From: Halococcus saccharolyticus DSM 5350 | GTDB taxonomy: Archaea; Halobacteriota; Halobacteria; Halobacteriales; Halococcaceae | Assembly: GCF_000336915.1 (NCBI RefSeq) | Contig: NZ_AOMD01000021.1 | Location: 1-64,000 of the forward strand | Direction of reading: 5' to 3' | DNA length: 64,000 bases | Shown: positions 20,947-26,216 of the stretch, one piece after another | Numbering within the stretch: the first letter of the stretch is position 1 | How the letters are laid out: each line of letters begins with the position of its first letter | The notes under the pieces: generated by a model | What the model was told of the DNA's origin: nothing | What the model saw: only the letters and a program-made list of their open reading frames with translations | Databases searched by the model: none | Made by a program: the position numbers and the translations under genes

Positions 20947-21243
20947 ATGGATGCGACGCCAGCGGAGATCGGCTCGCTTGTCGGCCGCGAGGTGTATTCG
21001 AACAACGGTGTGTTCGTCGGTGAGGTCGAAGACGTCCGTATCGACCTCGATCACGAGGTCGTCACGGGGATCGCGGTCGGGGGACTCAATCGGGAAGTGC
21101 TCGGCGGACGCGCGCGCAACGCCGGCGGCGTCATCGTCCCGTTCCGGTGGGTGCGCTCGGTCGGTGACATCGTGCTCGTCAACGACGTCATCGAGCGCCT
21201 CCGCGAACCCGAGACTGAAAGCGAGACGGAAGCGACCGCCTAG
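20947..21243 (+). CDS. PRC-barrel domain protein
   Basis: This is a 98-aa protein with a single PRC-barrel: IGSLVGREVYSNNGVFVGEVEDVRIDL, then VIVPFRWVRSVGDIVLV. Stand-alone archaeal PRC-barrel proteins are linked to RNA metabolism and, more recently, to cell-division proteins (CdpB family); the role of this copy is not evident. The TATA-like AGTTAAGT about 28 bases upstream supports leaderless transcription. The stop overlaps the convergent TrkA-DHH gene by four bases. Confidence 0.85.
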   Translation: MDATPAEIGSLVGREVYSNNGVFVGEVEDVRIDLDHEVVTGIAVGGLNREVLGGRARNAGGVIVPFRWVRSVGDIVLVNDVIERLREPETESETEATA

Positions 21244-22679
21244 CTCCCGTTCTCGTCGACGCCCATCGCCGCGAACAGCTTTCTCCGGACTGCTTCCTCG
21301 GTGAGCTGAAGCAGCGTCTCGCGGTTGTCGTCGCTGGTCTCGATCCCGGTGAAGATCCCGAGCGGGATGGCGACGGTCGCGTCGGTCGAGTGGCCCACGG
21401 CCTCGCCGATGTCCTCGAAGGCGTCTTCGAGGATGTTCCGGATGTTGAGCCGGATGTCCTTCGAGCGCGCCGAGAGGGTGATGCGCTCGTCGTCGATCGC
21501 GAACACCGCGGTCGTGGTGACACCCTCCAGATTCAGGAGATGTTGGGCGGCCTGGCTGAGCGCGTCACGGTCGTGGATGAACCCCGCGTTCGAGACGAGA
21601 TGCGAGCCCCGCACCTCCCGATTGCGGATGGCCTCGGCGAGCACGTCGAGCGTCTCGGGGCTCATCGATGGCGACTCGACCTGCTCTAGGGTGTCGTGGT
21701 CGGCGAACGGGTAGAGATACGAGGCCGCCGTCAGATCCGCTGGAGTCGTATCGCGCTTGAAGTCCAGCGTCTCGGCACGGATGCCGTAGAGCAGCGCGGT
21801 CGCGACGGTGTCGTCGAGCCCGAGGTCGAACTCCTGGACGTACTTGGTCAGGATCGTCGAGGTCGAGGAGACGTTCGAGCGCACGTCCGTAAACGCCGCC
21901 TCGTAGTCGGTGTCGGGTTCGTTGTGATCGATCAGGATGTCGACCGGGCGCTCGATCTCGCGTTCCATCGAGCGGGCGTGATCGACCAGCGCGAGCGTGT
22001 CGTACCCATCGAAATCGACCTCGTCGCGCGCGAGCAGTTCGACGCCGATCAGGTTGACGAACGCTCGATCCTCCTGGTGGCCGATCTCGCCGTCGTAGAG
22101 GATGTCAGCCTCGATCCCGCGGGCCTCGGCGATCGCCCGGAACGCGACCGCGCTCGCGATCGAGTCCGGGCCCGGGTTGTCGTGGGCGAGGATCGCGAGT
22201 TTCGACTCGGTCGCGTCGATGACGTCCGCGAGCTGGCCCGCCTTGTGTTCGAGTTCGCCGGTTTCGAGCGCCCGGAGCGCGGCGTCGGCGATCACCTGGG
22301 AGGGGTTGATGACGGCGTCCGCGCCCGCCTCCCGGAGTTCGTCGGCGGTGACCGGATCGGAGGCCCGCGCGACGACGAACTGGTCGTCGCCGCGGTCGCG
22401 GATGCGTTCGACCGCGGCTTGGTTCGCCTCGATGTCGGTCGAGAGGATCAACACCACGTCGCGGTCCGCGACCGCCTCGGGAACCTCCTCGTCCGCGATG
22501 TCCGCGGTCTTCGCGTTCAGGTCCTGGTCACGCAGCGCCTCGACTCGGCCGTCGTCGGCGTCGATGATGAGAACGTCCTTGCCCTCGTCGGCGAGTTCCT
22601 CGGCGACGGCGTAGCCGACGCTGCCACAGCCGAGGATCGCGTACGTGGACATCGAGGCCATCGTGATGCCCGTGCTCAT
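21240..22679 (-). CDS. TrkA-N (RCK-type) and DHH phosphoesterase fusion
   Basis: This is a 479-aa two-domain protein. Residues 11-140 are a Rossmann RCK/TrkA-N domain (ILGCGSVGYAVAEELA), which binds NAD-type nucleotides. Residues 155-470 are a DHH-DHHA1 phosphoesterase with HDNPGPDSIAS, LVDHAR and LIDHNEPD metal motifs, the group that includes c-di-AMP and nanoRNA phosphodiesterases. The fusion suggests a nucleotide-responsive link between K+/redox sensing and cyclic dinucleotide turnover. A TATA-like box at 22701-22711 supports the start. The fusion type is shared among haloarchaea. Confidence 0.9.
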   Translation of the reverse strand: MSTGITMASMSTYAILGCGSVGYAVAEELADEGKDVLIIDADDGRVEALRDQDLNAKTADIADEEVPEAVADRDVVLILSTDIEANQAAVERIRDRGDDQFVVARASDPVTADELREAGADAVINPSQVIADAALRALETGELEHKAGQLADVIDATESKLAILAHDNPGPDSIASAVAFRAIAEARGIEADILYDGEIGHQEDRAFVNLIGVELLARDEVDFDGYDTLALVDHARSMEREIERPVDILIDHNEPDTDYEAAFTDVRSNVSSTSTILTKYVQEFDLGLDDTVATALLYGIRAETLDFKRDTTPADLTAASYLYPFADHDTLEQVESPSMSPETLDVLAEAIRNREVRGSHLVSNAGFIHDRDALSQAAQHLLNLEGVTTTAVFAIDDERITLSARSKDIRLNIRNILEDAFEDIGEAVGHSTDATVAIPLGIFTGIETSDDNRETLLQLTEEAVRRKLFAAMGVDENGS

Positions 22680-22800: not shown

Positions 22801-22874
22801 GGGCCGGTAGCTCAGTTAGGCAGAGCATCTGACTCTTAATCAGACAGTCGGGGGTTCAAATCCCTCCCGGCCCG
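22801..22874 (+). tRNA. tRNA-Lys (anticodon CTT)
   Basis: This is a complete 74-nt cloverleaf. The acceptor GGGCCGG pairs with CCGGCCC, with a G discriminator. The D-arm contains AGCTCAGTTAGGCAGAGC, the anticodon stem is TCTGA/TCAGA with loop CTCTTAA (anticodon CTT), and the T-arm loop is TTCAAAT. No intron and no encoded CCA are present. Its last base directly abuts the stop codon of the convergent nuclease-MCM gene, a tight arrangement suggestive of past integration at the tRNA 3' end. Confidence 0.97.
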
Positions 22875-24515
22875 CTATGTTGTCCGAATGTGGTCTTTTT
22901 CGGGTTCGTACACCTCACCACGAGTTCGGAACTTCTCTATTAGATTTTTAGCCATTTCACGTTCAATACCCGCGTTTGCTGCGCTGTCGAGCACGTTCTC
23001 TATCGGTGCTCCATTGCTGGTTTCATCTTGAATCTCGGTGATTATTCTCTTCATTCCTTTTATTTCATCTCGATTATCATCTACAACCCCTGTTCCGACA
23101 GTATCGGTGTCAAATGGTACGGTTTCACAACTTATTTCGAGTGGAGAGAGCGTCTGGCTAGCAACTTCGACATCTTCCACAGTGACTGTGTCTGAGAGAC
23201 GCATCCGAGCACTTGCCTGCGCAGAAGCATGCAACGAACGGCTAGTCGAAATGCTCACATCTATGACGTCTGCTTCATTCCATCTTTCGATGATCTCTTC
23301 GGCTTTCATTTGGGCCTCGTCAGTCATTTGTGGCTTCGGAAACTTCCGAATAGAATAGGCGATATAGGCAGTCAAGTCGCTGATTGACAGAGTTTCGATT
23401 TTGGATGATTCCAGCCCAGTAAAGTTGCGGGGAAGTGTAATTTCACCTCGATCCGTGTTCAACCAGGCTTTGGCGTCGAACACCTCAAAAACCGCAGGCT
23501 GAAGTGGGATTTGTTCATCAAGTGATTCGTATTCGTCGACTTTTCCGTATTTTACTGTGGACGTTGCCAAACAAGAGAAATTGGCCTCATATTCATTATG
23601 ATGGTCCGCTTCAGTTGCAGTTACTCTCTGCTGTTCAAGTGGCTCAATGAGAGAATCTTTTCCGCTCAACTGAGCTATTCTGTCAAGGGCGACTACTCCG
23701 TTTGGACATTCAGTAAGTACGCCTCGATGTGTTCGTCCGCCGGAGTTGTATTTGCCGATAAGCCCACCTCTAGTCGCGGTACTGTAATTCACATACGTTG
23801 AAGGCTCTGCGAGGTTGAGCACCTCATCAAGCACTTCGGTTGCTCGGTCTCCTGCCTCGGTAATCAACAAAACGTGGAATGGATTGTCTCCACGAAAGAG
23901 TTGAAACGCAATCGCCAACTTAGCAGCCGGAGAGACAGGGTGACCAGATGGGATACTCTGAGTTAGGATCGAATACACATCATTGGTTTCGGCTAGTTCC
24001 GTGAATCGGATACGTTCTCCCTCAGTAATCGGTTGTTTGTCATTTATTCCTTCATTCGATTTATTGGCCTTTTGACTTCGGAGATTGATGTCTGAAGTGG
24101 CGTACCGCTCCAGTATATCGTTCGCGTCGGCCTCATTGACCAGAGAGATGATTGTATCGGGACCAACGAGCTTGACGTTTGCTTCCTTGGCAGACTCATG
24201 TGCTCCATCAGAAAATCCGCTCGTCGTCACCAGCAGAACTTCGTCTACATTTTGTTTGTGGTGCAGGTACGAATACTGCTGTACGTGACGGCGGAAAAGC
24301 TGGCCGCTTCGCTGCTTGGCCTGAATTAGCTTCTTTTGGCGATATGGTTCATCTCGCGTGGCGATAACGTCTATTCCGTCATCACCTGAGGCGACAGTTG
24401 TCGCCGTCTGCCACCCCAATCGTTCCCACAGTTCCGCAACAAAATCCTCGAAATCACGAGGGGTGATGGATGAAAGTGCCTCATAGAAATTTCCGACAGC
24501 TTCGTTCTCAGTCAT
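22875..24515 (-). CDS. Mrr-type nuclease fused to a catalytically degenerate MCM helicase
   Basis: This 546-aa protein is AT-rich relative to its neighbours. Residues 18-130 are an Mrr-like PD-(D/E)xK nuclease: FEDFVAELWERLGW, GDDGID (Asp49), IQAK (Gln65, Lys67), then LVTTSGFSDGA. Residues 170-460 follow an archaeal MCM ATPase module in order: ELAETNDVYSILTQSI, KLAIAFQLFRGD, then TEAGDRAT at the Walker A position (no GKS), GVVALDRI at Walker B, EPLEQQRV, KYGKVDEYE and EQIPLQPAVFEVFD at the arginine-finger site. The MCM lid and C-terminal winged helix are preserved, ending GEVYEPEKDHIRTT. The MCM N-terminal OB domain is absent. The ATG at 24515 fits a TATA box 29 bases upstream. Function unknown; probably defence- or element-related. 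Confidence 0.85.
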   Translation of the reverse strand: MTENEAVGNFYEALSSITPRDFEDFVAELWERLGWQTATTVASGDDGIDVIATRDEPYRQKKLIQAKQRSGQLFRRHVQQYSYLHHKQNVDEVLLVTTSGFSDGAHESAKEANVKLVGPDTIISLVNEADANDILERYATSDINLRSQKANKSNEGINDKQPITEGERIRFTELAETNDVYSILTQSIPSGHPVSPAAKLAIAFQLFRGDNPFHVLLITEAGDRATEVLDEVLNLAEPSTYVNYSTATRGGLIGKYNSGGRTHRGVLTECPNGVVALDRIAQLSGKDSLIEPLEQQRVTATEADHHNEYEANFSCLATSTVKYGKVDEYESLDEQIPLQPAVFEVFDAKAWLNTDRGEITLPRNFTGLESSKIETLSISDLTAYIAYSIRKFPKPQMTDEAQMKAEEIIERWNEADVIDVSISTSRSLHASAQASARMRLSDTVTVEDVEVASQTLSPLEISCETVPFDTDTVGTGVVDDNRDEIKGMKRIITEIQDETSNGAPIENVLDSAANAGIEREMAKNLIEKFRTRGEVYEPEKDHIRTT

Positions 24516-24539
24516 GAATGCTACATGAACGAGCAGACA

Positions 24540-24549
24540 CAATAAACGA
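24540..24549 (-). promoter_or_regulatory. TATA box of the nuclease-MCM fusion gene
   Basis: The minus strand reads ATCGTTTATT about 29 bases before the ATG at 24515. It favours that ATG over an upstream in-frame TTG. Confidence 0.5.
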
Positions 24550-24580
24550 TAGGGCGTCAGGTGTAGGTGATATTTCTGTA

Positions 24581-26065
24581 CTAACTATCCGGGCTGTAGT
24601 TCGGCGCTTCGTCGGTAATCACGACGTCGTGGGCGTGGCCCTCGGTCTGGCCCGCCGAGGAGACTCGGACGAACTCCGCACGGCGCTTGAACTCGGGGAT
24701 GGTTCCAGCACCCACGTAGCCCATCCCACTTTTCATCCCGCCGACGAGCTGGAAGAGTTCGCTCTCGACGCTGCCCTTGTACGGCGTCGCGGCCTCGACG
24801 CCCTCGGGAACGAAGTCCTCGTCCTCGTCGGCCTCCTTGAGATACCGATCGCCGCCGCCGGACTGCATCGCGCCAACCGAGCCCATCCCGCGGTACTGCT
24901 TGTAGCGCTTGCCGTTCATCGTGACCACGCGGCCGGGCGCTTCGTCGGTCCCAGCGAAGTACGATCCCAACATGACGGCGTCCGCACCCGCCGCGATCGC
25001 CTTGATCGCGTCGCCCGAGTAGCGGATACCGCCGTCGGCGATCACGGGAATGTCGTGCTGGCTGGCGACGTCGGCGACCTGGGCAACGGCGGTGATCTGG
25101 GGCATTCCCGCGCCCGTGACGACTCGGGTGGTGCAGATCGAGCCCGGACCGATGCCGACCTTGATCCCGTCGGCGAACTCGACGAGCTCTTGGGCGGCCT
25201 CACGCGTCCCGACATTGCCAACCACGACGTCGGCCTCGACGCCGGCGGCGAGTTCGCGCGCACTGTCGATCACGTTGCGGTTGTGGGCGTGCGCGCAGTC
25301 GATGAACAGCACGTCGGCGTCGGCCTCGTCGACCGCGGCGGCGCGCTCTTTTTCGAAGGGACCGACGGCGACCCCGACTCGCAGACGACCATCGGCGTCG
25401 CGCGCGGCGGTGTCGTACTCGCGGCGCTGGAGGATGCCCTGCATCGTCACCAATCCGACGAGTCGGTCGCCGTCGTCGACGATCGGGACGCGCTCGATCT
25501 TGTGCTCGTACATGAGTTCGAGCGCGTCGCGCGCGTCGACGTCCTCGGGAGCGGTGATGACCTCGTCGGTCATCGCCTCGCGGACTTCGTCGCGGTCGCC
25601 GACTTCGAGGTAGGGACGGATGTCGGTCCCGGAGATAATTCCCAACACCTCGCCGTCGTCGTCGACGACTGGCGCGCCGCTGACGCCCTCCTCGTCCATC
25701 ATCTCGTCGACCGCTCGCACCGTTTGATCGGGGCTCGCGGTAACGACCTCGCGGATGATGAGATCGTCGGCGCGCTTGACGCGCTCGACTTCGTCGACGA
25801 TCTCGTCGATGTCCATATTTCGGTGGAGCACACCGAGCCCGCCCCGGCGTGCCATCGCGATCGCGAGATCGCTCTCGGTGACGGTGTCCATCGCGGCCGA
25901 GAGCACAGGAACGGAGAGTTCGACCGATGTCGAGACACGCGTGGCCGTGTCGGCGTCGTCGGGCTCGACACGACTCTCCTTCGGCCGGAGCAACACGTCG
26001 TCGAACGTCAGCGCTTCCGGAACGCGGAGTTTCTCGGAGAAGGGTTCCGCTCTGTCGCTTACCAT
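24581..26065 (-). CDS. guaB: IMP dehydrogenase
   Basis: GuaB (494 aa) oxidises IMP to XMP with NAD+ in GMP synthesis. It has a TIM barrel interrupted by a CBS pair (about residues 95-210, [11 protein letters not shown] and [11 protein letters not shown]). The catalytic loop [16 protein letters not shown] carries the active cysteine, and the IMP-binding [22 protein letters not shown] and MGSVGAM motifs are present. I chose the second ATG (MVSDRAEPF) because a TTTTCA box then sits about 25 bases upstream. Confidence 0.97.
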
Positions 26066-26216
26066 GTAAACGGTCACCGTCCCGGCATGAAAAACGTTGC
26101 GAGACCGGGTGTCGAATCGATCCGTTCTCGGACGACTGTGGCACGCAACCCACTCTCCAGGGTCGTGTGGCCACGCCTCACGGAACGTTTATTCACGTCT
26201 CCCAGTATTTCCTGGT

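Follow-up and report, generated by a model that had tools for sequence, protein, structure and literature searches.

The stretch of DNA analysed here (the window; 64,000 nucleotides from Halococcus saccharolyticus DSM 5350) contains on its minus strand, at 22875-24515, a gene whose intact reading frame encodes a protein of 546 aa, with the ATG at 24515, the stop codon at 22875-22877 and a GC content per codon position of 0.58/0.40/0.46. An earlier note on this DNA had described the product as an Mrr nuclease fused to a catalytically dead MCM, a description borne out by Pfam matches together with the loss of the ATP motifs; the coordinates and the motif readings given there (TEAGDRAT, LDRI and EVFD) also proved right on alignment with the host MCM. 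The fusion gene has a GC content of 47%, against 65-69% in its surroundings. Its stop codon is abutted by the 3' end of a tRNA-Lys (CTT) gene (22801-22875, plus strand), an integration hot spot, and the insert as a whole extends over 22876-24581: collinearity with three genomes of the same genus is lost at the 3' end of the tRNA and regained at the stop codon of guaB. The conserved flanks are guaB (IMP dehydrogenase; 24581-26077, minus strand) and a DHH/TrkA-N family gene (21240-22679, minus strand).

The three same-genus genomes are collinear on either flank, and each contains a different cargo between tRNA-Lys and guaB: a 162-aa membrane protein in G001, a 261-aa protein with multiple membrane spans in G008, and, in G005, a 261-aa protein accompanied by an IS-like gene and a duplicate of the tRNA 3' end. 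The fusion gene sits in a variable island, and the earlier note had proposed checking whether homologs recur in such islands. In another genus of the family, a longer variable stretch lies beside the same tRNA and includes a tyrosine recombinase in one genome. At its right edge, the insert in the window showed no duplicated tRNA 3' end (att site). Overall, the tRNA-Lys(CTT) site acts as a hot spot at which single-gene cargo integrates. Cargo loci of this hot spot are 22801-24581 of the window, L079, L080, L081 and L087-L089, where tRNA-Lys(CTT) adjoins the DHH/TrkA gene.

A nuclease joined to an inactivated MCM module

The nuclease half is defined by a Pfam match to Mrr_cat at residues 15-125 (24141-24473, minus strand; E 7e-24, 84.6 bits against a cutoff of 21). 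The note had claimed that Mrr replaces the N-terminal OB domain of MCM, and residues 1-146 are indeed Mrr, with no Pfam match to MCM_OB or MCM_N in the protein. All invariant nuclease residues are kept in the alignment (F22, E23, D45, D49, Q65 and K67), and the catalytic D49, Q65 and K67 are invariant across both alignments made (A2 and A3). Among haloarchaea, Mrr is already known as an enzyme of type IV (PMC7776575). In PADLOC, solely the Mrr stretch of the fusion matched ZorD, PDC-S02 and mREase_IV (type IV, Zorya); the partner domains and partner genes of Zorya or other PADLOC systems are absent, the insert being a single gene between tRNA-Lys and guaB. The host genome encodes a second Mrr-domain protein (L002, 1501-1953; contig C18 of G000), 43% identical over the nuclease, whose C-terminal part consists of membrane segments. 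Relatives encode several Mrr proteins, each with differing partner domains.

The MCM half follows a disordered linker (residues 147-159, 24039-24077; pLDDT under 50) and contains an AAA+ core, a lid and a C-terminal winged helix in this order, as the note had stated and profile searches confirmed. The catalytically dead AAA+ core (residues 163-350, 23466-24029) is supported by profile, alignment and fold, with a match to the MCM P-loop domain at residues 170-348 (Pfam PF00493; E 1.9e-14, 53.8 bits against a cutoff of 23.3). The lid (residues 380-455, 23151-23378; pLDDT mostly >90) and the winged helix (residues 479-546, 22878-23081), the best conserved part, gave matches slightly below the Pfam cutoffs, to MCM_lid at 381-454 (E 4e-5) and MCM_WH_arc at 483-544 (E 5e-4), respectively. 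The NCBIfam model NF040949 aligns residues 147-545 with MCM positions 249-681 (E 2.7e-32), at a score of 111.9 bits that does not reach the curated cutoff of 940, and sequence matches in the PDB are to MCMs of archaea (E 1e-21). With a mean pLDDT of 77.7, the predicted structure forms four confident blocks; the linkers between them (147-159, 356-371 and 460-479) are of low confidence, and the predicted fold of residues 137-462 matches MCM AAA+ domains with Z 33.5 and an rmsd of 2.2 A over 290 residues. The MCM homology claimed in the note thus holds by profile as well as by predicted structure. The peptides it had called near-verbatim are close to those of the host MCM, but not verbatim (KLAIAFQLF for KLAMTLQLF, KYGKVDEYE for KYGRFDQYE, and at the C-terminal end GEVYEPEKDHIRTT for GEVYEPQTDHLRTT).

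The ATPase motifs were read from an alignment of the fusion with the host MCM and other haloarchaeal, plasmid and viral MCMs. Walker A (residues 219-226, 23838-23861) has lost its lysine, with LLITEAGDRATE in the fusion and LLIGDPGTGKSQ in the host MCM, and Walker B (residues 277-280, 23676-23687) has lost its DE pair, with VALDRIAQL in place of AAVDELDKM. The asparagine of sensor 1 is missing (ATSTVKYG; host GAANPKYG), the arginine finger (residues 344-347, 23475-23486) reads EVFD instead of SRFD, and the sensor-2 arginine of the lid is also lost. In addition, glutamate replaces lysine in the pre-sensor-1 hairpin (TEAD; host SKAG), and the helix-2 insert is 7 residues shorter than that of MCM. 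Walker A, Walker B and the arginine finger are invariant in 26/26 core haloarchaeal MCMs (PMC3972481). Judging from these motifs, neither normal ATP binding nor normal ATP hydrolysis is expected of the MCM scaffold of the fusion. Because the defining features of MCM were tested and found missing, the protein is not to be classed as an MCM helicase; it is an Mrr-type nuclease whose partner module is new and derived from MCM.

No orthologous fusion was detected in 17 other genomes of its own family, in an order sample of 392 genomes, in three large families (146, 125 and 170 genomes, the last searched without a positive control), in a phylum sample of 177 genomes, or on plasmids or in phages; these samples overlap, and the thresholds used would miss very divergent fusions. 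Peptide-pattern scans for the fusion in genomic and viral contigs were also negative. A homologous fusion with an intact Walker A, which would have made the gene simply a variant helicase, was likewise not found in the searched samples. Two plasmid "restriction endonucleases" (H16 and H17) match the protein to residue 205, but are not MCM beyond the nuclease and hence are no fusions, and Mrr proteins of 541-555 aa in relatives have partner domains other than MCM. The fusion is a singleton in the samples searched. A text search of the literature for inactivated or dead MCM in connection with defence found no paper, in keeping with the earlier note, to which no described system of this kind was known.

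Decay of the ATPase and retention of the winged helix

Identity between the fusion and the host MCM increases from 30% in the ATPase to 36% in the lid and 49% in the winged helix, whereas chromosomal MCMs show the reverse order, with the ATPase most conserved; the ratio of winged-helix to ATPase identity is 1.62 for the fusion and 0.72-0.94 for chromosomal MCMs. Likewise, 32% of the invariant MCM columns are retained in the ATPase, compared with 56% in the linker and winged helix. The winged helix of the fusion is nearest to the MCM of its own genome, by 1-3 points over other families (52, 51 and 49%). A viral source was rejected, as viral MCM tails are 21-35% identical and chromosomal MCMs up to 47%. 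When neutral change of the MCM part to 34% identity was simulated in 300 runs, a mean of 14 and a minimum of 4 stop codons arose, whereas none is present in the 546 codons of the fusion; selection has therefore maintained the frame while constraint on the ATPase was lifted, and chance decay is an unlikely source of the protein.

Three parallels to the fusion are recognizable from sequence: headless dead MCMs at six loci, a full-length dead MCM on a plasmid, and proteins consisting of a winged-helix tail without the ATPase. The headless dead MCMs (387-440 aa) are encoded on haloarchaeal plasmids and chromosomes, with L137 (2065-3384) and L139 (2194-3381) on Natrinema plasmids and L174 (6452-7660), L175 (4644-5966), L177 (4512-5675) and L178 (4137-5303) in four genomes; a pattern scan of viral contigs for such proteins found none. 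Like the fusion, they are devoid of the N-terminal tier and of Walker A and B, have a shortened helix-2 insert and keep the winged helix, but unlike it they contain no nuclease, and the kinship is weakly supported: the MCM half of the fusion and the headless group lie on one side of a branch with support 74/85, where long branches meet. Descent of the fusion from a decaying plasmid clade (L129/L130/L131/L133) is neither favoured nor rejected (AU p 0.08). Two further headless genes, at G054:C85:95253-96143 and G069:C17:220781-221443, are broken by in-frame stops, which points to rapid turnover of the group.

The full-length dead MCM (L131, 1218-3320; 700 aa) lies on the Haloarcula plasmid pHsi139 and has lost Walker A, Walker B, sensor 1 and the arginine finger. 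Its winged helix is 87% identical to the MCM of the presumed host family, whereas identity in the ATPase is 44%. The related plasmid MCMs L129 and L133 read SQFD instead of SRFD. The tail-only plasmid proteins, L140 (2890-3255), L141 (2545-3252), L142 (2614-3198), L143 (2725-3204) and one at L129 (2186-2863), have unrelated N-termini followed by an MCM winged-helix tail that ends in GEVYEP..LRTT or a similar sequence; those at L142 and L143 lie near genes for ParA and a DNA adenine methylase. An MCM C-terminal remnant on a Haloarcula marina plasmid (L138, 2749-3348) is broken by a stop or frameshift and is annotated as a hypothetical gene on the opposite strand. According to a published survey of MCMs in haloarchaea, the motifs are intact in 9/9 ATPase-bearing outliers, and four further outliers are N-terminal-only (PMC3972481); the dead MCMs and MCM-tail proteins described here are a set absent from that survey.

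The headless group forms a single clade on the ATPase and lid (98/95), whereas in the winged-helix tree L177 and L178 group with the chromosomal MCMs of their family (SH-aLRT 99), a conflict suggestive of tail replacement or tracking. L177 is found on the same strand as the chromosomal mcm gene, 88 bp downstream of it, and its winged helix is 77% identical to the MCM of its own genome, against 28% in the ATPase; the winged helix of L175 is also nearest to the MCM of its own genome. The best winged-helix match belonged to the same family in four of the five elements of known host family (nominal p 8e-4; 7e-3 with the related L177 and L178 counted once), the host families of plasmids being inferred from organism names. 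Thus, in the fusion and its parallels, the sequences indicate that the ATPase tends to decay while the winged helix stays conserved, and in most cases the tail is closest to the MCM of the host's own family.

Possible functions of the fusion and relation to known systems

The archaeal MCM winged helix contacts ORB-bound Orc1-1, as described in Sulfolobus (PMC12141716); it is dispensable for unwinding, which it restrains (PMC4619765), and in another archaeal MCM it impedes oligomerisation (PMC13049513). The earlier note had suggested, as one option, that the MCM part docks on or mimics MCM rings so that the nuclease acts at replication forks, and such docking may occur. Docking on the initiation or loading machinery appears better supported than docking on elongating rings, because the winged helix and not the ATPase is the most constrained part and because of the contact with Orc1-1. 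The explanation tentatively preferred here, plausible but far from secured, is that the dead MCM serves as an adaptor through which the nuclease reaches the machinery for MCM loading, probably acting on plasmids or viruses. The fusion would then be an MCM mimic armed with a nuclease, encoded by one gene that travels as mobile cargo at a tRNA-Lys hot spot; its dead MCM part would act as adaptor and not as motor. The winged-helix tail would dock on the usual contacts of the MCM winged helix, namely origin-bound Orc1/Cdc6 or an MCM under loading, and the nuclease would thereby be brought to DNA starting replication and cut there. Plasmids or viruses with host-type initiators would be the likely targets; given the mobility of the cargo, the carrier could just as well be an element directed against another element.

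Intact nuclease residues, a complete loss of ATPase residues and a preserved MCM AAA+ fold, all read from sequence and prediction, argue for the adaptor, as do the headless dead MCM located 88 bp downstream of mcm and the free winged-helix tails on plasmids. The contrast in identity between winged helix and ATPase, here and in other dead MCMs, the family matches of the tails, the contact with Orc1-1, the variable-island site and the type IV nature of haloarchaeal Mrr point the same way. Against it stand the singleton status of the fusion, a winged helix just 1-3 points nearer to the host MCM than to those of other families, and the knowledge of the Orc1-1 contact from Sulfolobus and not from haloarchaea; a constitutive nuclease would also have to spare host origins.

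It is rather unlikely that the dead AAA+ module instead poisons rings by entering MCM hexamers of host, plasmid or virus as a dominant-negative subunit and stalling or marking them, so that the nuclease cuts the stalled fork. The kept AAA+ fold (Z 33 in the predicted structure) fits such a role, and a headless dead MCM directly downstream of mcm would be expected of a subunit or regulator. However, the residues of the cis side (Walker A/B, sensor 1) have gone along with those of the trans side (arginine finger, sensor 2), no N-terminal tier is present, conservation is lowest in the ATPase, and one archaeal MCM requires ATP and DNA for assembly (PMC13049513). Ordinary Mrr-type (type IV) restriction, with an MCM remnant used for oligomerisation or winged-helix DNA binding and no link to replication, seems improbable to a similar degree. 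Mrr domains of this family carry very different partners, membrane segments among them, the PADLOC matches lie in the Mrr portions of Zorya and type IV proteins, and an MCM winged helix could bind DNA; yet this gives no account of winged helices that track host MCMs during ATPase decay in several dead MCMs.

Less probable again is a regulator or hijacker of replication, which would compete with MCM for the loader and shut down or redirect host replication for the element, the nuclease trimming or being secondary. Nuclease-less dead MCMs and tail-only proteins do exist, mainly on plasmids, and inactivated PolB2 and RadA are known in archaea (PMC4104785), but all nuclease residues are retained in the fusion. 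A functionless chimera decaying after recombination at the tRNA site, consistent with a singleton and a fast-evolving ATPase, is very improbable given the open frame and the preserved nuclease residues and C-terminus.

If the adaptor explanation is true, the nuclease would be directed at replication initiation itself. A broader and somewhat more speculative proposal is that haloarchaeal mobile DNA uses MCM-derived adaptors for the origin-licensing machinery of the host, comprising dead MCMs as well as isolated winged-helix tails with host-matched sequence; armed here with a nuclease, the adaptor would form an origin-targeted defence or inter-element weapon that senses the start of replication and not DNA sequence or modification. 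Host-matched winged-helix tails predict lineage-specific binding to host Orc1/Cdc6 or MCM, and such binding would reveal how MCM loading works in archaea other than Sulfolobus.

What distinguishes the fusion from known systems? With Mrr or type IV restriction endonucleases (PF04471), such as H. volcanii HVO_0682, it has in common the nuclease domain with its D and QxK motif, but their partner is a modification-reading or membrane module and that of the fusion a dead replicative helicase. ZorD of Zorya likewise joins an Mrr-like nuclease to a helicase-family protein; it is, however, a SWI2/SNF2 helicase with a C-terminal Mrr-like nuclease, an SF2 motor and partner proteins, whereas the fusion is a single gene with an MCM fold and a dead motor. 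Archaeal MCM helicases (PF00493, NF040949; 698 aa in the host) are alike in fold, in C-terminus and in the order of AAA+ core, lid and winged helix, but the fusion has no N-terminal OB/zinc tier, has lost all ATPase motifs and has gained a nuclease. The catalytically inactive MCM2 of Methanopyrus kandleri (PDB 3f8t) is a precedent for an inactive archaeal MCM (PMC3972481), and its fold matches the fusion at Z 31 with 27% identity; it keeps the MCM N-terminal subdomains, which the fusion does not have, and contains no nuclease. The inactivated PolB2 and RadA paralogs share the principle of replication or recombination enzymes kept without catalysis, in other protein families and without a fused nuclease (PMC4104785).
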